From positions 1 through 25,268 of the IMG/VR virus record IMGVR_UViG_3300047300_000530: a DNA stretch of 25,268 nucleotides; one strand, given 5' to 3'. The position numbers were made by a program, and so were the translations under genes. This stretch comes from a virus. The notes under the pieces were generated by a model. The model was given only the letters and a program-made list of their open reading frames with translations, did no database searches and had not been told where the DNA came from. Below, piece after piece: positions 189-18,234 of the stretch (position 1 is the stretch's first letter; every line of letters begins with the position of its first letter).

Positions 189-623
189 TTAGGTTAGATC
201 GCCGCGCATGGCGGCGGGGTAATCGTGCGCGGTTAGGGTTTGCGCGCCATTGGATCGGTAATATATAAATTGTCCCCGCGCTTCGCTTGCCGTCTTCAGG
301 GAATGATGCCCGGCGCACAATGATTGGAACAAATTACGGGCGAACGATTGACCGCCAATAATGCGCCACGGGAAAACGTGGTCAACGTGGACCGCTAACG
401 TAACCCGGTTTTCAAGGTTGCAAGCTTGGCACAATGGAACCCGTGATAACTGAGCGGCGCGTATGCTTTCCCATAACCTTGTCTTATATGCGCGATTGGA
501 TTCTAGGCGCGTGGCACTTAGGCGCGGTTTGCCGCCGTGAGCTTCACAGTGCGCCGAACCGGGCACCCGTGGCGCTTCACACCGTAAAGCTTCGCACTTA
601 GTAAATTGAGGGAAAACGGGCAT
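189..623 (-). CDS. HNH endonuclease
   Basis: A 144-residue protein with a C-terminal HNH fold. A CQAC pair near residues 69-72 is followed by VDHVFPWR (about 81-88, with the DH catalytic pair), then NLFQSLC..HHS.KTA.E..G (about 97-114). The spacing C-x2-C ... DH ... N ... C-x2-HH matches free-standing phage HNH nucleases, which often sit beside terminase genes and can assist packaging or act as homing enzymes. An N-terminal set of Cys/His residues (CEALRCEAP...HCEAHGG) may bind another zinc. The ATG is at 623; the Shine-Dalgarno is weak (GGG very close to the start). It is transcribed away from the rightward unit beginning at 651. Base use matches the G+C-rich left block. The family call is firm; its role in this phage is inference, and no terminase is visible in the window. 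Confidence 0.85.
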   Translation of the reverse strand: MPVFPQFTKCEALRCEAPRVPGSAHCEAHGGKPRLSATRLESNRAYKTRLWESIRAAQLSRVPLCQACNLENRVTLAVHVDHVFPWRIIGGQSFARNLFQSLCAGHHSLKTASEARGQFIYYRSNGAQTLTAHDYPAAMRGDLT

Positions 624-650
624 ACCCGATCATTGTATGGGGTTTTTCTA

Positions 651-705
651 TTGAGCCGTGTTAAGTAATTTTGCTATGATGACGTCATGCGCTAATAGTG
701 GCGCA
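651..705 (+). promoter_or_regulatory. Extended -10 sigma70 promoter with palindromic operator-like site
   Basis: A -35-like TTGAGC (651-656), an 18-bp spacer and a TATGAT -10 (675-680) preceded by TGC, making an extended -10. A perfect 10-bp palindrome, ATGACGTCAT (679-688), overlaps the end of the -10 and the expected start point. A second inverted repeat, TGCGC-N8-GCGCA (688-705), follows. The position suits regulated transcription of the 729-2404 genes. The promoter is read from sequence only; a regulator for the palindrome is not identified. Confidence 0.65.
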
Positions 706-728
706 AAATTGAAAACCGGAGTATTAAA

Positions 729-995
729 TTGGACAAAAAAACTTATCAAATAACGCGCCGTTCAATTCGCGAAAACGGATTGCGTTACACCGCGCACGTT
801 GCCGCTGAAACTTCAAATTTTGCCGCGCTTGAAATTTGCGACAGCGTGGCAAACCTTATCAAACAAACCGATTGGCTCGCCATGCGCGCACAATTTGCCC
901 GCAATGAAACCGCCGCCATTGCATTCAAGCTCACGATGCGGCAATGGCTTGATCGCCGTGGAATGGATTTTCCGATCATATGGGGCAAACAATGA
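729..995 (+). CDS. Small unknown protein, first gene of the left unit
   Basis: An 88-residue, mostly helical protein of no recognised family. I chose the TTG at 729 because GGAG lies seven bases upstream (718-721) and no ATG is available in frame nearby. The N-terminal part is basic and polar (KKTYQITRRSIRENG). The remainder is Ala-rich and ends in a WLDRRGMDFPIIWG segment. No Cys cluster, signal peptide or membrane segment is seen. It follows the 651-680 promoter directly, so it is likely the most strongly transcribed gene of the unit. Its stop overlaps the start of the next gene in an ATGA. Codons are rich in GCG, GCC and CGC, like the rest of the left block and unlike the phage genes to the right. 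Confidence 0.65.
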   Translation: MDKKTYQITRRSIRENGLRYTAHVAAETSNFAALEICDSVANLIKQTDWLAMRAQFARNETAAIAFKLTMRQWLDRRGMDFPIIWGKQ

Positions 996-1072
996 AAACC
1001 AAAATTCTTGATATCGCGCTTGCAGTAGCGCTTGGCATCATGTTTGCCGCTTTTTTGTTCGCGGGCATTTAA
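992..1072 (+). CDS. 26-residue single-pass membrane peptide
   Basis: A very short frame beginning at the ATG that overlaps the previous stop (ATGA). After MKTKILD it is almost wholly hydrophobic (Ile, Ala, Leu, Val, Gly, Met, Phe) and ends AFLFAGI, so it would form one membrane-spanning helix or an uncleaved signal-like peptide. The coupling, the clean Lys-then-hydrophobic pattern and the absence of space for another gene support it. Function is unknown; many phages encode such micro-membrane proteins. Confidence 0.5.
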   Translation: MKTKILDIALAVALGIMFAAFLFAGI

Positions 1073-1097
1073 AAACCATCACTTTATAGGATAAGAC

Positions 1098-1826
1098 ATG
1101 AAAAACACACAAACCGCGCTTGCCGCCGCTTTTTCACAATCCCCCGTTCGGGTCCATTTCGTGCCCGTTTCAAATAACAGCAAAACCGGACCAATCCCCG
1201 TCACCTATTCGGAACGCGCTACTTGCCCGCTATCGTGCCCGCATTATCGCTCTGATTGTTATGCCGAAGATTACTACACAAAAATGACATGGGATAAGGT
1301 GCCGATGCGCGGCGGCGATTGGCACGATTTAATTATGAGCATTTCAAGCTTGCCGGCGGGTCAATTGTGGCGGCATAACGTGGCGGGCGATTTACCCGGC
1401 GACAATGAAACCGTGGACCCCGTGGCGCTTGGTTACTTAGTGCGCGCAAACATTGGCAAGCGCGGTTTCACTTACACACACAAACACACACCGGAAGCGC
1501 TTAAGTGGATTCGCCATGCGAACAATTGGGGATTCACAATTAATTTAAGCGCCGATGATGCCGGGCACGCCGATACCCTAGCCGATACGGGCGCGGGTCC
1601 GGTTGTTTGTATCGTGCCAAGCGATACACCGGAAAAAACGCAAACCCCGGCGGGGCGTGACATTGTTGTTTGCCCCGCGCAAACGCGCCCTGATGTAACG
1701 TGCGCCACTTGCGGTTTGTGTCAGCGGCAAAACCGGGCGGTGATTGTAGGTTTCCGGGCGCATGGCACCCGCGCCAAAATCACAAACGAAAAAGCGCGGC
1801 GCGTGATTCCAATCGCCAAAATTTGA
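1098..1826 (+). CDS. Cysteine-cluster phage protein, DUF7227-like
   Basis: A 242-residue protein and the largest product of the left unit. Conserved-looking blocks in order are: RVHFVPVSNNSKTGPIPV (about 18-35), the Cys cluster CPLSCPHYRSDCYAE (about 43-57), LWRHNVAGDLPGDNE (about 90-104), GFTYTHKHTPEAL (about 123-135), GFTINLSADDAGHADTLAD (about 150-168), then VVCPAQ...VTCATCGLCQ (about 190-209) and VIVGFRAHGTR (about 215-225). From memory this pattern matches a phage family of unknown function now named DUF7227; I cannot run a search. The two Cys clusters suggest zinc or iron-sulphur binding, and the layout recalls the phage Gp37/Gp68 (DUF5131) proteins, which have radical-SAM-like folds; that link is speculative. 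The ATG has AGGA seven bases upstream. Its stop forms a repeated stop-SD-start cassette with the next gene. Confidence 0.75.
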   Translation: MKNTQTALAAAFSQSPVRVHFVPVSNNSKTGPIPVTYSERATCPLSCPHYRSDCYAEDYYTKMTWDKVPMRGGDWHDLIMSISSLPAGQLWRHNVAGDLPGDNETVDPVALGYLVRANIGKRGFTYTHKHTPEALKWIRHANNWGFTINLSADDAGHADTLADTGAGPVVCIVPSDTPEKTQTPAGRDIVVCPAQTRPDVTCATCGLCQRQNRAVIVGFRAHGTRAKITNEKARRVIPIAKI

Positions 1827-1836
1827 GGGGCAAATA

Positions 1837-1980
1837 ATGAAAAAACAATTTGCTGAAGTTAAGACGCGCTACTTTGCAAAAAAATTAATGCCGTGGGCTT
1901 GCATCATTGTGCAAGTTAATGGCGGTTTTTTGGGCTTTGAATGTGCCGCCGATTATCAAAATTGGCGAAAACAAAAATGA
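1837..1980 (+). CDS. Small basic unknown protein (47 residues)
   Basis: An ATG-initiated frame preceded by GAGGGGC seven bases upstream, within a stop-SD-start cassette that recurs at 1978-1997. The product is rich in Lys and aromatic residues, with a short central hydrophobic stretch (MPWACIIVQVNGGFLGF) and two Cys. The ending YQNWRKQK resembles small phage host-interaction peptides only in size. No family is recognised. Support comes from the strong cassette, the tight packing and the codon use shared with its neighbours. Confidence 0.6.
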   Translation: MKKQFAEVKTRYFAKKLMPWACIIVQVNGGFLGFECAADYQNWRKQK

Positions 1981-1990
1981 GGGGCAAATA

Positions 1991-2188
1991 ATGAAAAGTT
2001 ACATTAGAAAAAGTTATGCATTTAAAGATGATCGAATGATTGTTTTTAATGGTCACATAAAAAGTGAAACCGCTATAAAGCGCGGTTTTTCTCATGTGAC
2101 GTTATCAATTTTTGATGCATCGGGAAAGGGGCGCGGGGAAAATCGCCGTTTTTCCTATCCGTTCGCCACAATGAAACCGTTTTTTTGA
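1991..2188 (+). CDS. Small unknown protein (65 residues)
   Basis: It starts at the ATG inside the second copy of the TGAGGGGCAAATAATG cassette. The protein alternates polar and hydrophobic residues (RMIVFNGHIKSETAI, SHVTLSIFDASGKG, RRFSYPFATMKPFF) in a way that suits a small beta-rich fold. No catalytic motif, signal or membrane segment is visible. A further in-frame upstream extension exists but would bypass the cassette and overlap the previous gene, so I reject it. The function is unknown. Confidence 0.6.
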   Translation: MKSYIRKSYAFKDDRMIVFNGHIKSETAIKRGFSHVTLSIFDASGKGRGENRRFSYPFATMKPFF

Positions 2189-2197
2189 GGGGCAATA

Positions 2198-2404
2198 ATG
2201 AAAATTCCACGGATTGGAGAACGGGTGCGCTATGCGCCCGCTTTTTTGGCAAGCATTGCCGCACCGGGTTGGAAAACGCGCCGGGGCACAATTGTGCAAG
2301 TAAATGGACCCGTTCGCCACAATGGTCCGATGTACTTGAAAATTCAATGGGACAATGCCGGCGAACCTAGCGGGGCGCTTTCCTGTAACGTCAAAATAGT
2401 CTAA
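2198..2404 (+). CDS. Small beta-rich SH3/KOW-like phage protein
   Basis: A 68-residue protein starting at the ATG of the third (one base shorter) copy of the stop-SD-start cassette. The pattern PRIGERVRYAPAFLASI...RRGTIVQVNGP...YLKIQWDNAGE...NVKIV is typical of small phage proteins with an SH3-like barrel: a Gly-x-Arg-Val-Arg-Tyr strand, a turn, a Gly-Thr-Ile-Val strand and an Ile-x-Trp strand. Such proteins are common and have no assigned function. It is the last gene of the left unit; an intrinsic terminator begins two bases after its stop. Confidence 0.65.
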   Translation: MKIPRIGERVRYAPAFLASIAAPGWKTRRGTIVQVNGPVRHNGPMYLKIQWDNAGEPSGALSCNVKIV

Positions 2405-2405
2405 T

Positions 2406-2430
2406 CCGGGGTTCGCCCCGGTTTTTTTTT
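2406..2430 (+). terminator. Intrinsic terminator of the left unit
   Basis: A perfect six-base-pair GC stem, CCGGGG (2406-2411) and CCCCGG (2416-2421), is closed by a stable TTCG tetraloop and followed by nine T residues (2422-2430). This is a textbook rho-independent terminator. It lies directly after the 2198-2404 gene, so it closes the rightward transcription unit and insulates the sequence to the right. Confidence 0.95.
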
Positions 2431-2860
2431 GCCGTGCGCGGGTAACCGTGCGCGGGTTCGCCATTGGTTCGCCAATTGTGCGCGGCACGGGTTCGCCCGT
2501 GAAAATTTAGGTTAGCGCCGGGGATTTGCCATGCGCGGCACCCGTGCGCGGGTTATGCCATGCGCGGCGGGTTTGCGCGTGACGGGGCAATTGTGCGCCC
2601 GTGCGCTAGCGTGGAGCGGGGCATTGTGGCGGGTTTCATGGCATGGCGGCGCTTGGCACGGGTGCGGGCGGCGCGGGTGCGCTTGGCGGGTTTTGCGGCA
2701 TTGTGGCGCGTGGCGCGGGTGCGCGTGGCGCGTGGCATAGCGGGCGGCATTGTGGCGGGTTTTTAGCGCGTGGCGGGGCATTGTGGCGCGGCGCGTGGCG
2801 GTTTTTATTGTGGCGGGGCGCGCATGCGGCAAGCTTGCAAACCCTTGATTTATAACGGTT
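2431..2860. repeat. GCGC-rich, G/T-skewed degenerate repeat tract (right copy)
   Basis: About 430 bases without a credible gene. Short words recur irregularly: CCGTGCGCGGGT three times, GCCATGCGCGGC twice, and ATTGTGGCG five times (starting near 2622, 2699, 2748, 2779 and 2807, at shrinking intervals of about 77, 49, 31 and 28). GCGC is extremely frequent, and in the line 2641-2700 I count 46 of 60 bases as G or C. The plus strand is strongly G over C and poor in A. Every open frame across it encodes Arg/Ala/Gly/Trp low-complexity sequence. A 10-bp palindrome, GCAAGCTTGC, sits at 2829-2838. It could be a cis-acting site, a structured RNA or decaying repeat DNA; nothing in the sequence decides. 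Confidence 0.6.
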
Positions 2861-2873
2861 TTTTCGTTTTTTC

Positions 2874-2924
2874 AGCGCTTGGCGCTTGGCGGTTTGCGCC
2901 TATTATCCCTATTCCCGACACGGG
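2874..2924. other. Hairpin-forming segment left of the 9-bp repeats
   Basis: The segment contains a direct repeat of GCGCTTG (2876-2889), an inverted repeat GGCGC-N10-GCGCC (2881-2900), and a small CCCG-ACA-CGGG hairpin (2914-2924). There is no gene. It forms the last G+C-rich part of the left block just before the direct repeats. Confidence 0.4.
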
Positions 2925-2929
2925 TAAAG

Positions 2930-2965
2930 GGTTGTAAGAATTGTAAGGATTGTAAGAATTGTAAG
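2930..2965. repeat. Four tandem 9-bp direct repeats (iteron-like)
   Basis: Four head-to-tail copies of RRTTGTAAG occur: GGTTGTAAG, AATTGTAAG, GATTGTAAG and AATTGTAAG, with no spacer. They are followed by AATC and a run of seven G (2970-2976), and then by A-rich sequence (2977-2984, 3007-3016). Tandem short repeats beside an A+T-rich stretch are typical of iteron-type origins or regulator-binding arrays. The array lies exactly where base composition changes. No initiator gene is identified in the window, so an origin role is inference. Confidence 0.7.
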
Positions 2966-3031: not shown

Positions 3032-3220
3032 TTACTTTTTCACTGGCTGGCTGCATTCTGATATTTTTTTGTCGCCGCCAGAAAAATTATTATTATTTTC
3101 ACCGTCCTCTTTAAATCCGTGAGCGTAAGCTGCCCTGGCTACCGACAGTGCTTTTGCTTTGGTAGAAAACGGTCCTTTTGATCCCCAGAACCATTTTCCG
3201 TTGACGTTTCGCAGCGGCAT
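3032..3220 (-). CDS. Small conserved phage protein of unknown function
   Basis: A 62-residue protein. The N-terminal half, MPLRNVNGKWFWGSKGPFSTKAKALSV..AAYAHGFKE (about 1-40, shown here in part), matches a pattern seen in many phage proteins: a short strand with Gly-x-Trp-x-Trp-Gly, a Lys/Ala-rich helix and an Ala-Tyr-x-x-Gly end. Its tail is Asn- and Lys-rich and probably disordered. It is the last gene of the leftward early operon and starts nine bases after the previous stop. No function is known for the pattern. Confidence 0.65.
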   Translation of the reverse strand: MPLRNVNGKWFWGSKGPFSTKAKALSVARAAYAHGFKEDGENNNNFSGGDKKISECSQPVKK

Positions 3221-3229
3221 ATTAATCTC

Positions 3230-3625
3230 TTATTTCAAGAATCTAAGTTTATACAGCGTAGAGTTAATCAGGTCTGCAATTTCATCCACAATATTTTGAA
3301 GTTCGCTGTCTTGCGGGAATCGCTGTTGGCGTCTTAGCGTTTCAACCTCAGTCTTGAGATATTCAAGGTAAGCAACGGGTTGATCTGGGAGTTTGTAATC
3401 ATTCGTGAAATCGTGAAGCAGTCCATATTTACCTTGGAATGCCTCAACAAATGAGTCCACTAAATCCCCAATTTCTCCGTAAAATAATTCTAATGCTTTA
3501 TGCTCGGAGTAGCTGCGAGTCGTTAAGTGAAGAATGTGGGCATTGGTCACACTGTGAAGCAAACACATGGTGAACTGCATCACTGGATCGTTGGATTTGG
3601 CTTCGATGCTTGCGACAAACTTCAT
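3230..3625 (-). CDS. Helical, Dps/ferritin-like phage protein (DUF5856-like)
   Basis: A 131-residue, almost wholly helical protein. I chose the ATG at 3625 (MKFVASIEAK) because GGAG lies five bases upstream; an upstream extension has no such site. The heart of the protein has well-placed His, Glu and Asp: SVTNAHILHLTTRSYSEHKAL, then FYGEIGDLVDSFVEAFQGKYG. This resembles phage proteins with a Dps- or ferritin-like four-helix bundle that I recall as DUF5856; the match is from memory. His38-, Glu- and Asp-type ligands could bind metal, but nothing proves it. It follows the HNH-like gene after a 78-base gap in the same operon. The role is unknown. Confidence 0.6.
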   Translation of the reverse strand: MKFVASIEAKSNDPVMQFTMCLLHSVTNAHILHLTTRSYSEHKALELFYGEIGDLVDSFVEAFQGKYGLLHDFTNDYKLPDQPVAYLEYLKTEVETLRRQQRFPQDSELQNIVDEIADLINSTLYKLRFLK

Positions 3626-7101: not shown

Positions 7102-7191
7102 ATGTGGCCCTTCCCTACTGAACCCCTGCCAGTCAAGCGTAACAAACCTATTCCTTTTAACCCAGACAATTACGAGGATGCGCCGTTATGA
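7102..7191 (+). CDS. 29-residue Pro-rich small protein
   Basis: The first rightward early frame, with AGGAG nine or ten bases before its ATG. It is short and unusually Pro-rich (WPFPTEPLPVKRNKPIPFNPDNY). Its stop overlaps the next start (ATGA). Such first small frames are common behind early phage promoters. No family is recognised, and it might also serve as a translated leader. Confidence 0.5.
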   Translation: MWPFPTEPLPVKRNKPIPFNPDNYEDAPL

Positions 7192-7340
7192 ACACACAAG
7201 CCCTTAAAACCGTTCGTAGGCTTTTCAATGTTGACTATGTACCCAAGCAGCAGAATCGACACAATCAACGCGCTTGGGTGCGTTCTGTGCGTATTCTGGG
7301 GGATCGTTGGTTGCTGTCACAGAAAGTAGAAAAAAAATGA
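7188..7340 (+). CDS. Small basic unknown protein (50 residues)
   Basis: It begins in ATGA overlap with the previous gene and ends in ATGA overlap with the next. The product is rich in Arg, Lys, Asn and Gln (ALKTVRRLFNVDYVPKQQNR, RAWVRSVRILGDRWLLSQK) and would be strongly positive, consistent with nucleic acid binding. No family is recognised. Tight coupling on both sides supports real expression. Confidence 0.6.
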   Translation: MNTQALKTVRRLFNVDYVPKQQNRHNQRAWVRSVRILGDRWLLSQKVEKK

Positions 7341-7540
7341 GTCCTGAGTACATCATCAATTCAATCAAGCAGATTTCAGAAATCAACTACCGCAATGGTG
7401 AAAGCGCAGATCGCCTTGCATACCGAGTTGGTTTGCTGGAGTCAAAAATCAGAGAGCTTTGCTTTGTGCATGAAGAAAGAGTAAAGTTTCTGAAAGAAGA
7501 AATCTTGTCCCTCAAGAAAATTATCGACAATCTTAGTTAA
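7337..7540 (+). CDS. Small helical/coiled-coil unknown protein
   Basis: A 67-residue protein. The ATG at 7337 overlaps the previous stop; a longer frame upstream would read through the previous gene, so I reject it. The body has heptad-like spacing of hydrophobic residues (LAYRVGLLESKIREL, ERVKFLKEEILSLKKIIDNL), suggesting a coiled coil. No catalytic motif is visible. It lies nine bases upstream of the Erf-type gene in the same operon and could be a small partner, but no evidence shows that. Confidence 0.6.
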   Translation: MSPEYIINSIKQISEINYRNGESADRLAYRVGLLESKIRELCFVHEERVKFLKEEILSLKKIIDNLS

Positions 7541-7549
7541 GGAGTAGCA

Positions 7550-8131
7550 ATGAAAGTTTATCAAGCAATCAATTCAGTCCAAGCAGAGCTTTGCAAAATT
7601 GGCATCGCCAAAGACTCAAGAAACACCCAGGGGCAGGGATACAACTTCAGAGGCATTGACGCTGTCTATAACGTGCTGTCATCAATCATGGCGCAGAATG
7701 GTCTTGTCATCGTTCCCAGGATGTTGGCTAGAACCTGTGAGGAAAGAATCAGCAAATCAGGTGGCGCACTTTTCTATGTGACAGTAGAAGCTGAGTTTGA
7801 TCTGATCTCCGCTGAAGACGGGTCCAAACACACCGCTAGGACGTTTGGTGAAGCGATGGATAGTGGAGACAAAGCCACTAACAAAGCAATGTCAGCAGCC
7901 TATAAATACATGGCGTTCCAGACCTTTGCAATCCCCACTTCTGGTGACAATGACGCAGACTCATCGACTCATGAAGTTGTCAGAAAGAAACCAACTATCG
8001 ACAACAATCGTCTAGGTCAGGCAATCCAGAAAATCAAAGAGGGAGCCTACACCACTGACAAACTCAGAGAGACTTTCGCTCTGACCGCAGAACAGGAAAA
8101 AGTCTTGGTAGGAGCACTTGCAAATGATTAA
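7550..8131 (+). CDS. erf: Erf-family single-strand annealing protein
   Basis: A 193-residue member of the ERF superfamily (phage P22 Erf type), which anneals complementary single DNA strands during phage recombination. The N-terminus has IAKDSRNTQGQGYNFRGIDAVYNVLSSIM (about 19-47, shown in part as QGYNFRGIDAVYNVLS), and the core has the diagnostic GEAMDSGDKATNKAMSAAYKYM and FAIPTSGDNDAD at about 100-140. The C-terminal part is a polar extension with a short helical end. The ATG has a strong AAGGAGTAGC site. It overlaps the next start. Together with the YqaJ-type exonuclease and SSB downstream it forms a complete two-component recombinase. Confidence 0.93.
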   Translation: MKVYQAINSVQAELCKIGIAKDSRNTQGQGYNFRGIDAVYNVLSSIMAQNGLVIVPRMLARTCEERISKSGGALFYVTVEAEFDLISAEDGSKHTARTFGEAMDSGDKATNKAMSAAYKYMAFQTFAIPTSGDNDADSSTHEVVRKKPTIDNNRLGQAIQKIKEGAYTTDKLRETFALTAEQEKVLVGALAND

Positions 8132-13860: not shown

Positions 13861-16800
13861 TTAATCAGTGAAATAGGTGAAATAACCGCGCAACGTATAA
13901 GTAGAAGCTGAACTATTTTCTACTGCTGCTCCGGCAACAGTCCACATATTAAATTGTGATACACCACCGCCAATCGCAAAAGTAACATTACTTATGCTTG
14001 CAGTTTGATATGTGAAACCGCCACCGCCAGGATTGGAAACAGAAGGATAATATACAGATGCAAACGGTAATCCACCAATTGTGATTTGCGCTGAACTTGC
14101 AGTAGACGGGAAAGTCATATTAAAATAAACAATAACTTGCCTGCCAATTTTTGTGTAATTGCCAGCCGCATTACTAAATGAAAGACTTGCACCGCTTGCA
14201 TCAGACGGAGTCCAAGTCCCCTCCTCATAGTCATCCAGCGTGTTGGCGTTGGAGGATGCGTTTTGGGTGGCGGGGAAGGTGATGCCTGCACCGGAAGTTG
14301 CCGGGTCTGCGTCTCCAACACCAATACACTTCACGGCTTTGAAGCCGTACCCAGAAGAATCAAATTGCAGGATTGGGTGATATCCGTTATCTGTTGAGTT
14401 TGGCTGAATAAACCGAACGGCGTTGCGGAACATCACCTCGCCACCAACACCACTAAAACTGCCGCTGGCGTTGCTGCTTGGGTCGTAGTTGATACTGACG
14501 GTCTGGTTCCATCCCACAGGAGCGCCAATCACCAATGCGCCATAACTGCCGGGAGAGTACCCAAAACCTGACTGCTTAATGCCCGGGAAACGGTTAGTTT
14601 GCCCAATTTGCTGGAAATAGACCTGACCAGTTTGCGCCGTTGCAGAGATCAATGGGTTGCCATCACCGTCAGACAGTACGAGCCAATTGCTTGCAGTGCG
14701 AATGTCGAGGTTGCCTTGGTTGCCGTTGTAGGAGCCGAGGATGGTGTTCTTTGCGCCATTGGTCATGTAATAACCAGCGGCACGACCAACGAAAGTGTTT
14801 AAGTCTCCACTTGTTTGGTTGTAGGCACACAGGCTTCCTACAAATGTGTTGTAGCTACCTATAGCCGCATAACCAGCGCGGTAACCAGTGTAGTGATTTT
14901 CTTCACCTGTCTGGTTGCTATACCCAGCCTGATAACCAACAGCAGTGTTGTTAGATGCGGCAGCGCTTGCCTGAAGAGCTTGAAAACCTACTGACGTATT
15001 ATTGTTTCCAGTGGTGTTACTGGACAACGATTCTTTGCCAACAGCGGTGTTGTAAGTTCCGCTATCGTTCCAAAACATTGACAAATCGCCAATGGCTGTG
15101 TTGTTTGAACCAGTCCCAGACCCCGTGTAACCATACATCGCCCCACGACCAAAAGCAGTGTTGCTGTATCCGGTCGTGTTGATGTACATCGCCTGATAAC
15201 CTGCAGCGGTGTTGTATGAGGCGGTGGTGTTGGCGTTAAGAGCATTAGCACCAAGTGCTACGTTATACGAGCCTGTTGTATTTGCTTGAAGCGTGTTATT
15301 ACCAAATGCTGCATTGTTTGTCCCGCTAGTTGTTGCTGGCATTGCCAAGCGACCAAAAGCGTTATTGGCATCTCCTGTTGACAAAGCCAATGCGTTATAG
15401 CCAAAAGCAGTTGAAGCGTTACCGATGGTATTTACTGCAAGAGCATTAGCGCCTCCAGCAGTGTTTTGAAATCCACTTGTATTAGCCGCCAAAGCACTCG
15501 CACCCACCGCAGTATTGGTGGACACAGCACCTGCGCCACGACCTACGGTGACATCATAAACAGTTATGTCATTAGCTAATGCATTAGATGATCCACCCAA
15601 TGCAATTGCAGTACCACCAATTGTGATGCTAGAGTTTGTTAATGCACTATTTGGAACGTTGCTTAAAGTTCCACCTAAAGTTAAATCTCCTGATGTGGTA
15701 ACAGTTCCAGTCAGCGTTAGACCATTGACAGTTCCCGTTCCACTGACAGAAGTCACTGTTCCCAATGGATTGGTTGCCCAAGATGTATTAGAACCATCAG
15801 TGGTCAGATACTTTCCTGAGTTACCAGTTTGATCGGGAGCAAGAGCGTTAAACGCAGCATTAGCCGTGGTTTGACCTGTACCACCGTTGGCAATACCCAA
15901 AGTACCAGCAAGCGTCACAGCGCCAGCCGTAGCCGTGGAAGGAGTAAGACCAGTTGTACCACCGCTAAAAGTTGTTACAGAAACATCACTAGGAGCAACG
16001 TTTTTCCAATACTGCAAAGTGCTATCGTATTGAATCAGGTTTCCGTTAGCCAAGGTTCCAAACTGAACGTTAGAGTCCGTACCACCCAACACAGAGCCAG
16101 CAGAAACACGAACCAAAACAGAACCACTGGCAGCGTTACCTGAGTTAATAACCGCACACATCTGAACTTTGATATCAGGTGCGCTTGGTTTGGTAGCAGT
16201 CAACCCACCAGTAACAGAAGGGTTGTACCAAAGAATGTCACCATCAGTAAAAGCTGATGTGTCAAATCCTCTCAACGTGCCTTCAAACTGAATAAGTCCA
16301 AATCCATTAATAGCAATGCTTTCAGCAGCAATGCCCATAATGTAAGAACCATCAGTTACAGAGGCAGCAGGAGCACCAGTCACAACACCAGATGCACCCA
16401 CCGATCCGGTAAACATTACCACTTGACCTTTGGTAATTGCAGAAGATGCCTTGATGTAATAGAACTGATCTTCACCAATCTTTTGAACAACATTACCACC
16501 CGCCATGCCCAAGCCAAGGGTGTTATTGCCATCCCAACCCAATTGACCAGCAGTCAAAGCAGTTGTGTATGTCGTGTCAAATGCAACGTAGTCAACCGTG
16601 GAAATGCCACCTGTAATTCCAGACATTGAGGTAATGTCAGAGTTAGCACCAGAAGCAGCAGCACCTAAGTTAGTCCTGGCTCCTGAAGCAGTAGACGCAC
16701 CAGTGCCACCATCTGCCACTGCCAAATCCGTAATGCCAGTGATAGAACCACCAGTGATAGATACGTTATTGGCATCTTGAGTTGACATAGTGCCCAACCC

Positions 16801-18234
16801 AGATACTTGCGTATTTGCAATCGCAATAGTTGTACTAGCAGCAGCAGTCAACCTGCCTTGACCATCAACAGTAAAGTTACCAACAGAAGATGCAGAGCCA
16901 TAAGAACCCGCTGTAACCGCTGTATTAGCCAAAGAAATTGTGCGGTTGGCACTTAGGTCGCCACCACCAGAAAGACCCGTTCCTGCGCTGATTGTGAGGC
17001 TTGTAGGAGGTGCGCCAACATCAGAGGCAGAAAGAACCACAACTCCGGTATAACCGTTAACAGAAGCAACCGCATCAGTGTTGTCAATTTTTTCCCAAGC
17101 AGTGCCGTTAAAGATTGCCCAGTCGCCTGGCAACCAATCAGTAACGCCGTTCAGGTTAGTGTTACCAGCAACAGAAACAACATAGTAATAACCTTTTGAA
17201 CCAACGCTAGAAGTCAAAGTAGGCGTGTTGGTCGAAGCATTCCAAGACCCTTGATAACTCACACCACCTTGAATTGATGCGGGAATCTGGGAAAGAGGAA
17301 CAGTGCCACCAGAATCAAGCGTAGCAACGCCGTTAGCAACACCAGCATTCAAGGTAGCAGCAGTGCCCAAACCAAGGTTAGAACGTGCTCCAGACGCCGT
17401 AGAAGCGCCCGTTCCACCATCGGCAATAGCAAGGTCAGTAATTCCAGTGATTGAGCCGCCAGTAATGCTTACATTGGAGGAGTCTTGCGTTGCAATCGTT
17501 CCAAGACCCAGGTTAGTCCTAGCCCCAGAAGATGTTGAAGCACCAGTGCCACCGTCAGCAATAGCAAGATCGGTAATACCAGTAATAGACCCACCAGTAA
17601 TTGCAACAGCAGAAGCGTCTTGAGTAGAAATTGTGCCAAGTCCAAGATTAGTCCTTGCTCCAGAAGCGGTGGACGCACCTGTGCCGCCATCAGCAACCGC
17701 AAGGTCAGTGATGCCAGTAATCGAACCACCAGTTATTGAAACATTGGAAGAATCTTGCGTTGCAATAGTCCCCAACCCTAAATTAGTTCTGGCTCCAGAA
17801 GCTGTCGTTGCACCAGTACCACCGTTGGTAATTGGCAAAGTGCCAGTAATATCACCAGTGGAAATATCTAGCGTATCCCAAGAACTATTAGTTCCATCGG
17901 TTTTAAGATATTTACCTGAATTTCCTGTTTGAGAAGGAGCCAGAGCATTAAAACCAGCATTAGCGGTTGTTTGTCCAGTGCCACCCAAGTTAACAGGAAC
18001 GGTACTCAAACTAATCGTAGAACCAGTCACAACAATTGGAGATGCACCAATGTATTGAATGGTTCCCACAGGTCCAACTGTTTCGGTTGTGCCATCAGAG
18101 AAATAAAACTCCAAATACAGAGCGTTATCAATTTCAACAGGCACAACATCCGTGACACTGCGACCAGCAACGCCACGATCAATGCGAACAATCAGGTTAT
18201 TTCCGTCAACAACAACAACTTTTTGGATAGCCAT
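13861..18234 (-). CDS. Tail fibre, 1,457 residues, repeat-built
   Basis: The receptor-binding fibre. After an N-terminal attachment part (VVVVDGNNLIVRIDRGVAGRSVTDVVP) it contains a GGTGQTTANA-FNALAP-QTGNSGKYL module twice (about 83-115 and 785-820). Three full 45-residue units (GGTGASTASGARTNLGLGTI, then TQDSSNVSITGGSITGITDL) occupy about 136-285, with partial units there and near 481-525. A Trp-rich GSWNASTNTPT...DWLPGDWAIFNGTAWEKID segment lies between them. About 15 copies of a 16-20-residue N-T-A-x-G-x-x-A-L-x-x-N-T-T-G unit run from about 902 to 1165 and should form a beta-helical stalk or head. The tip begins NTLDDYEEGTWTPSD (about 1331). No S74 chaperone domain is visible. AAGGGG precedes the ATG. 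Confidence 0.93.
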   Translation of the reverse strand: MAIQKVVVVDGNNLIVRIDRGVAGRSVTDVVPVEIDNALYLEFYFSDGTTETVGPVGTIQYIGASPIVVTGSTISLSTVPVNLGGTGQTTANAGFNALAPSQTGNSGKYLKTDGTNSSWDTLDISTGDITGTLPITNGGTGATTASGARTNLGLGTIATQDSSNVSITGGSITGITDLAVADGGTGASTASGARTNLGLGTISTQDASAVAITGGSITGITDLAIADGGTGASTSSGARTNLGLGTIATQDSSNVSITGGSITGITDLAIADGGTGASTASGARSNLGLGTAATLNAGVANGVATLDSGGTVPLSQIPASIQGGVSYQGSWNASTNTPTLTSSVGSKGYYYVVSVAGNTNLNGVTDWLPGDWAIFNGTAWEKIDNTDAVASVNGYTGVVVLSASDVGAPPTSLTISAGTGLSGGGDLSANRTISLANTAVTAGSYGSASSVGNFTVDGQGRLTAAASTTIAIANTQVSGLGTMSTQDANNVSITGGSITGITDLAVADGGTGASTASGARTNLGAAASGANSDITSMSGITGGISTVDYVAFDTTYTTALTAGQLGWDGNNTLGLGMAGGNVVQKIGEDQFYYIKASSAITKGQVVMFTGSVGASGVVTGAPAASVTDGSYIMGIAAESIAINGFGLIQFEGTLRGFDTSAFTDGDILWYNPSVTGGLTATKPSAPDIKVQMCAVINSGNAASGSVLVRVSAGSVLGGTDSNVQFGTLANGNLIQYDSTLQYWKNVAPSDVSVTTFSGGTTGLTPSTATAGAVTLAGTLGIANGGTGQTTANAAFNALAPDQTGNSGKYLTTDGSNTSWATNPLGTVTSVSGTGTVNGLTLTGTVTTSGDLTLGGTLSNVPNSALTNSSITIGGTAIALGGSSNALANDITVYDVTVGRGAGAVSTNTAVGASALAANTSGFQNTAGGANALAVNTIGNASTAFGYNALALSTGDANNAFGRLAMPATTSGTNNAAFGNNTLQANTTGSYNVALGANALNANTTASYNTAAGYQAMYINTTGYSNTAFGRGAMYGYTGSGTGSNNTAIGDLSMFWNDSGTYNTAVGKESLSSNTTGNNNTSVGFQALQASAAASNNTAVGYQAGYSNQTGEENHYTGYRAGYAAIGSYNTFVGSLCAYNQTSGDLNTFVGRAAGYYMTNGAKNTILGSYNGNQGNLDIRTASNWLVLSDGDGNPLISATAQTGQVYFQQIGQTNRFPGIKQSGFGYSPGSYGALVIGAPVGWNQTVSINYDPSSNASGSFSGVGGEVMFRNAVRFIQPNSTDNGYHPILQFDSSGYGFKAVKCIGVGDADPATSGAGITFPATQNASSNANTLDDYEEGTWTPSDASGASLSFSNAAGNYTKIGRQVIVYFNMTFPSTASSAQITIGGLPFASVYYPSVSNPGGGGFTYQTASISNVTFAIGGGVSQFNMWTVAGAAVENSSASTYTLRGYFTYFTD

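Follow-up and report, generated by a model that had tools for sequence, protein, structure and literature searches.

A cos-bounded compositional island around an accessory gene slot, at the probable entry end of an HK97-type siphovirus

Introduction

Near the left end of a viral contig, a small cluster of genes stands apart from its surroundings in the texture of its DNA. An earlier note had read positions 624–2430 as a self-contained, moron-like cargo unit of foreign composition or, alternatively, as one side of a join between two sources at about 2900. The question raised by this locus is whether its texture belongs to the genes, as an import would have it, or to the place in the phage chromosome at which they lie. 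The window analysed here is the entire IMG/VR record IMGVR_UViG_3300047300_000530, 25,268 bases in length, and it was compared with relatives retrieved with DUF7227, DUF5856 and HNH queries.

Results

A transcription unit built around a DUF7227 gene

The transcription unit at 624–2430 is real, but the coordinates first given to it are too narrow. The six plus-strand ORFs, the promoter with its extended -10 (sigma70-like, TTGAGC-18-TATGAT) and the intrinsic terminator, which reads CCGGGGTTCGCCCCGG-T9, were all confirmed where the earlier note had placed them. A promoter scan is by itself near chance (13 sites against 9.4 expected); the call at 651–680 is rescued by its position, since a promoter-like site at +27 to +33 from the HNH start is found both in the window and in six relatives (L104, L112, L118, L119, L128 and L131). 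A plus-strand terminator stands 570–800 b ahead of the conserved gene r62 in seven islands, and no Rfam element matched significantly. The distinct ribosome-binding word that had been ascribed to the unit, GAGGGGCAA, exists, but only at the last three ORFs.

189–623, minus strand: HNH endonuclease gene, the cos-side neighbour, in HK97-type position (PHROG HNH families, best E 9e-17)
651–680, plus strand: sigma70-like promoter with extended -10, its position retained in six relatives
729–995, plus strand: orfA, 88 aa (weak match to phrog_7646, E 0.0045)
992–1072, plus strand: hydrophobic ORF, 26 aa, read from the sequence
1098–1826, plus strand: DUF7227 protein, 242 aa, with seven invariant cysteines (PF23872, E 1.6e-79)
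1837–1980, plus strand: small ORF, 47 aa (GAGGGGCAA at 1825)
1991–2188, plus strand: small ORF, 65 aa (GAGGGGCAA at 1979)
2198–2404, plus strand: small ORF, 68 aa (GAGGGGCAA at 2187), retained in L100 (57%)
2406–2430, plus strand: intrinsic terminator

The cargo had been described as having no known function. The other ORFs have no confident family; the largest does have one in the databases, the conserved, uncharacterised DUF7227 (267 bits against a cut-off of 27, residues 18–232), and its invariant cysteines were counted in an alignment of 37 sequences. No relative with a solved structure was found by sequence and no PDB fold matched at E ≤ 0.001. In a fold search the predicted model (pLDDT 78.9, weakest at about residues 40–70, which include the first cysteine group) matched models of the viral GP88 and Gp37/Gp68 proteins weakly (E 4e-3 to 5e-3), while a profile comparison of DUF7227 with GP88, made on a small alignment, was negative. 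Homology between the two is only suggested by the models, and an Fe-S enzyme is a plausible guess for DUF7227. Among isolates, CRP-345 carries a homologue near its left end and P-SSP2 one just ahead of gp0.7/RNA polymerase, and those of PAK_P1 and P26059A are in small-gene regions; none of these homologues is odd in composition. In DSL-LC05 the gene lies near the terminase. Three unrelated podovirus-like phages (L001, L009 and L026) carry a DUF7227 island with the texture described below, between the terminase genes and a large minus-strand ORF, which is a primase/polymerase in DSL-LC05; this island is transcribed away from the terminase. No protein of the window matched a counter-defence family and 62 island proteins gave only marginal matches in PADLOC-DB; this search was weak because that database lists mainly defence, not counter-defence, proteins. 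No plasmid relative of the one island protein searched was found, and among open-licence papers there was no literature on DUF7227.

One slot with many alternative cassettes

The unit occupies a slot flanked on one side by the HNH gene beside cos and on the other by a conserved minus-strand operon, r62-DUF5856:

3032–3220, minus strand: r62, conserved gene, inner border of the slot
3230–3625, minus strand: DUF5856 / phrog_858 gene (PF19174 E 1.3e-21, phrog_858 E 1.5e-29)

Among the loci of the DUF5856 set the slot is empty (0–7 b) in about 33, where the HNH gene follows within a few bases of the DUF5856 gene or r62; 13 others hold minus-strand genes or about 1.1–1.5 kb of other DNA, and the remainder carry a divergent plus-strand cassette of 1.9–3.6 kb. 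A DUF7227 gene is part of the cassette in the window and in L004–L008, L011, L013, L048, L051 and L176. Among the Pfam phage families DUF7227, GP88 and Gp37-Gp68, the window has the first, and GP88 proteins occupy the same slot in L124, L200, L267 and L270. The other cassettes encode mostly orphan proteins, and cassettes are highly variable between relatives. By these comparisons the window unit is one of many alternative plus-strand cassettes in a single slot of HK97-type cos phages; the slot is fixed, and either stands empty or is filled by a divergent cassette of several genes that brings its own promoter and terminator and is here centred on DUF7227.

The slot adjoins a fixed genome end

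No cos motif was found within the window, which ends before cos, the contig starting inside the compositional island. Its relatives provide the end: 59 loci terminate with one signature, nearly all CT[CT]... followed by TTTTAGTTT at base 22, although not all are independent and some are the same contig fetched twice. These contig ends mark a fixed genome end, as in an HK97-type cos siphovirus. Contigs that span the junction show the core CGCGCCTGCTCCCG, which we take as cos. Across it from the HNH gene lie TerS, HK97-type TerL and portal families in L139, and L006 has the same HNH-cos-TerS-TerL-portal order by matching ORF sizes. The HK97 genome is laid out likewise, with an HNH gene at its right end and TerS at its left.

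Several further features of these genomes were observed. In L006 a C5-cytosine DNA methylase gene (7106–7849) lies between cos and TerS. The HNH homologue beside DUF5856 in L169 (P19250A; 36560–36997) is publicly annotated as 'holin', probably a misannotation. The window also encodes a tail fibre of 1457 aa (13861–18234) with several near-identical internal repeats (GGTGASTASGARTNLGLGT...). The host is likely, on weak grounds, a freshwater betaproteobacterium, because one contig (L302) has been placed in a beta-proteobacterial MAG and the nearest isolate by TerL is a Methylophilaceae phage.

Composition follows the place and not the genes

A composition plot along the contig, which the earlier note had called for, gave a sharp change at about 2923 relative to the remaining 22 kb. 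The claimed difference of the unit is thus real, but it is not confined to 729–2404; it extends from base 1 to about 2923, over the HNH gene and the cassette as well as 0.5 kb of non-coding DNA. Nor is richness in G+C, which the earlier note gave for the codons of the unit, the essential contrast; this lies in the clustering of A/T against G/C and in the depletion of AG/CT. The island and its inner edge comprise:

1–2923, no strand: island of distinct composition, with A/T and G/C bases clustered and AG/CT depleted (change-point at 2923)
2431–2930, plus strand: non-coding, repeat-rich DNA, G-rich on one strand only (47 repeated 11-mers, 0 inverted; flank mean 0.5)
2927–2968, no strand: short repeats of the TTGTAAGAA type, bordering the conserved operon

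The lag-1 autocorrelation of A/T versus G/C is 0.302 in the island and at most -0.004 in any piece of equal length to the right (0.30 vs -0.04 in summary); per kilobase it is 0.27–0.34 in the island and -0.09 to 0.01 further right. AG/CT stands at 0.39 against 0.95 in the rest of the window, CAG/CTG at 0.13 against 1.35, and the trinucleotide correlation with the core at 0.30–0.36 against 0.63–0.95. Across 17 islands the autocorrelation is 0.13–0.34 (flank mean -0.03), and the vocabulary is reduced: 2 kb of island contain 361–440 distinct canonical 5-mers, compared with means of 459–476 in the flanks. Codon usage was ruled out as the cause: AG/CT is depleted alike at codon positions 1-2 and 2-3 and at the boundary 3-1 (AG at the boundary, 19 observed and 46 expected). 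Since the boundary step is equally affected, and non-coding DNA even more strongly, the effect acts on DNA rather than on codons. Which words are depleted varies with the island group; in L104/L119 GATC occurs 0 times against 119 expected and GA is enriched, elsewhere CAG is depleted, and CAG is the most consistently lost word across all 17 islands. A helical-phase (10–11 bp) curvature gave just a weak signal in one group. No literature on a cos-bounded composition island was found among open-licence papers.

The outer edge of the island falls at cos. Composition edge and cos core lie 11–14 b apart in L006 (7929/7940) and L008 (1202/1216) and about 80–110 b apart in the junction contigs L051 and L122; in 11 pooled junction contigs the autocorrelation is 0.215 from HNH to cos, and the 400 b beyond, on the TerS side, give -0.016. 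The inner edge lies within -249 to +43 b of the r62 end in all 19 islands examined, and stays there for islands of 1.9 to 3.6 kb. Dereplication at 75% identity left 41 HNH loci, 14 with a divergent upstream unit and 27 with a same-strand one, and the two classes differ in composition both upstream (p 4e-6) and inside the HNH gene (p 2e-6), values that serve as a guide only, the sequences being related. Anomalous composition (0.12 or more) is seen in 13 of the 14 divergent lineages, with unrelated genes, and slots with minus-strand genes are of normal composition. Loci that have a divergent cassette are thus compositionally distinct all the way from cos to r62, through the HNH gene as well, and the outer edge of the distinct DNA is the cos cut.

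The contrast also outlasts divergence. Between L004 and L005 the identity at 4-fold sites is 69% in HNH, 64% in DUF7227, 61% in ninB and 62% in vrr, with the contrast intact, and the DUF7227 genes of the window and L004 share 48% of these sites. Island and core have diverged together and the contrast has persisted: the composition is maintained, which makes an unameliorated import unlikely. In several groups the islands share with their cores an avoidance of CCGG and GATC, the pattern that a long stay under common pressures would leave. No such island was found at the genome ends of lambda, HK97, T7 or the isolate relative P19250A; being the first DNA to enter is therefore not enough to give rise to the texture. 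In the sister lineage L138–L163 (L139, for example), whose slot is empty, a mild A/T-G/C clustering with AG/CT depletion (about 0.63–0.76) is spread genome-wide over the available sequence instead of forming an island, so that block exchange and lineage effects have to be retained as competing explanations. The phage cores of all relatives show strong palindrome avoidance (6-mers O/E 0.37), with CCGG and GATC nearly absent in several groups, which suggests heavy restriction pressure.

Repeats, Chi and DnaA words

The stretch from terminator to r62 is 0.5–0.6 kb long, rich in repeats and G-rich on one strand, and from 2942 on the sequence of the window is homologous to L084 (83%). In L011, L048 and L051 the commonest 8-mer of this stretch is the E. 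coli Chi word GCTGGTGG, with 9, 7 and 9 copies respectively on one strand, against a simulated mean of 1.1–1.6 for the same region and 0–1 per strand in the 5-kb flanks; the window's own array consists of other G-rich words. The GCTGGTGG copies are oriented to be read by an enzyme moving from the core side towards cos, and the word, being that of E. coli, may not be the host's. Such an orientation could favour recombination within the island or its salvage. DnaA-box words number 10 in 60 kb of islands and 1 in 70 kb outside, and come from four loci; perfect copies (TTATNCACA) were observed in the divergent promoter region at +7 (L103), +26 (L115), +228 (L124) and +96 (L004) from the HNH start.

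Discussion

The explanation that we favour, with modest confidence, is that the window comes from an HK97-type siphovirus and contains, next to cos, an island of accessory genes that is probably the first DNA to enter the cell, driven by a host-type promoter and locally maintained in its composition. By homology with lambda and HK97, the HNH end would be packaged last and enter first. With a host-type promoter near the entering end, the first phage RNA would come from the cassette, whose products, DUF7227 and the small proteins, may serve counter-defence or host take-over. Only in linear DNA is cos a boundary, and whatever shapes the composition therefore most likely acts on the linear form, be it at entry, in packaging or in end-directed recombination. 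A further possibility is that the inner G-rich array labels the island as a place for recombination and the shuffling of genes. More tentatively, and as a possibility we would not yet put at even chances, a DNA-level regime may be imposed and maintained only in the last 2.5–4 kb of the linear virion chromosome, bounded by cos, wherever a divergent cassette is present, covering core genes, accessory genes and non-coding DNA alike.

Classically, a moron consists of one gene that has been added within the late region. Here the slot holds several genes and lies at the genome end. Like the morons of HK97 and lambda, the unit has its own promoter and terminator and is optional; unlike them, its odd composition is bounded by cos and extends to the core HNH gene. 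The moron-like part of the earlier description survives in that the unit is self-contained, with its own start and stop signals, and is present, absent or replaced at one site. In plasmids, anti-defence genes cluster in the leading region, the first DNA to enter (PMC11541004). The present island resembles such regions in its small genes clustered in probably first-entering DNA, and differs in belonging to a phage, in an entry order that is inferred, in its odd composition and in that known anti-defence genes were not found. Descriptions of the T5 injection stop signal list repeats, inverted repeats, palindromes and DnaA boxes (PMC13250531). T5 first-step-transfer DNA likewise has its pre-early genes on a terminal segment (here about 8% of the genome), behind which comes non-coding DNA rich in repeats; with the DnaA boxes of some islands here the parallel is one of structure only, and it is drawn with a cos phage. 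In lambdoid phages Chi words are concentrated towards cos (PMC3784561), as GCTGGTGG is close to the packaging site in L011, L048 and L051, but here as a dense one-strand array in a non-coding stretch.

Other explanations of the texture have to be weighed. An exchange of the right-end module, in which the block from cos to r62 was swapped in from a phage pool with this texture genome-wide and the composition is the signature of the donor, would suit the edges at cos and r62, the high variability of the cassettes and the genome-wide texture of L138–L163. We consider it unlikely, as that lineage has empty slots and so offers no donor, the anomaly is present in almost every divergent island that sits in a normal core, and island and core have co-diverged in L004 and L005 without the contrast fading. 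Less probable still is a mutational regime of the chromosome end that works without selection, the HNH-side end being the starting point for repeated resection, for repair synthesis or for slippage. The coincidence of the edge with a DNA end and a repeat-rich, vocabulary-poor sequence speak for it, but the other flank of the cut, towards TerS, shows no effect, the depleted words differ between groups, and the inner edge keeps to r62 whatever the island length.

The remaining candidates fare worse. A recently acquired foreign moron that retains the composition of its donor fits a variable slot unlike the core, yet the anomaly is not limited to an inserted gene: it includes the conserved HNH gene and non-coding DNA, ends at cos, recurs with unrelated genes and survives high synonymous divergence, so we regard the 'foreign' of the earlier note as unsupported and this origin as very improbable. 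It is at least as hard to credit that leading DNA avoids host restriction sites or CRISPR PAMs until antidotes are made. Leading-region anti-defence genes on first-entering DNA are a precedent (PMC11541004), and avoidance of palindromic sites was expected beforehand, but the palindrome test went the opposite way: palindromes are commoner in islands than in flanks (4-mers O/E 1.22 vs 0.73, 6-mers 0.81 vs 0.37), and CAG is the word lost most consistently. As for an assembly chimera at about 2900, which the abrupt change of texture might suggest, we give it practically no credence; nine contigs from several different metagenomes (L004, L005, L006, L007, L011, L013, L048, L051 and L100) repeat the junction, with cassette and core in the same order, and this refutes a join of two sources.

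Under the island reading that we favour, the accessory slot is ordinary in kind and the texture of its DNA is the unusual part. Compositional islands are routinely read as recent foreign DNA, and an island that is strong, resident, maintained and bounded by cos contradicts this default. A regime confined to the chromosome end would, if true, mean that selection or some process acts on one end of linear phage DNA. Such an island would also offer a marker, readable from sequence alone, of the end by which a phage chromosome enters and of the genes that are expressed earliest. DUF7227, which is widespread, has conserved cysteines and is early or terminase-proximal in several unrelated phages, may have a role in counter-defence or host take-over that is directly testable.
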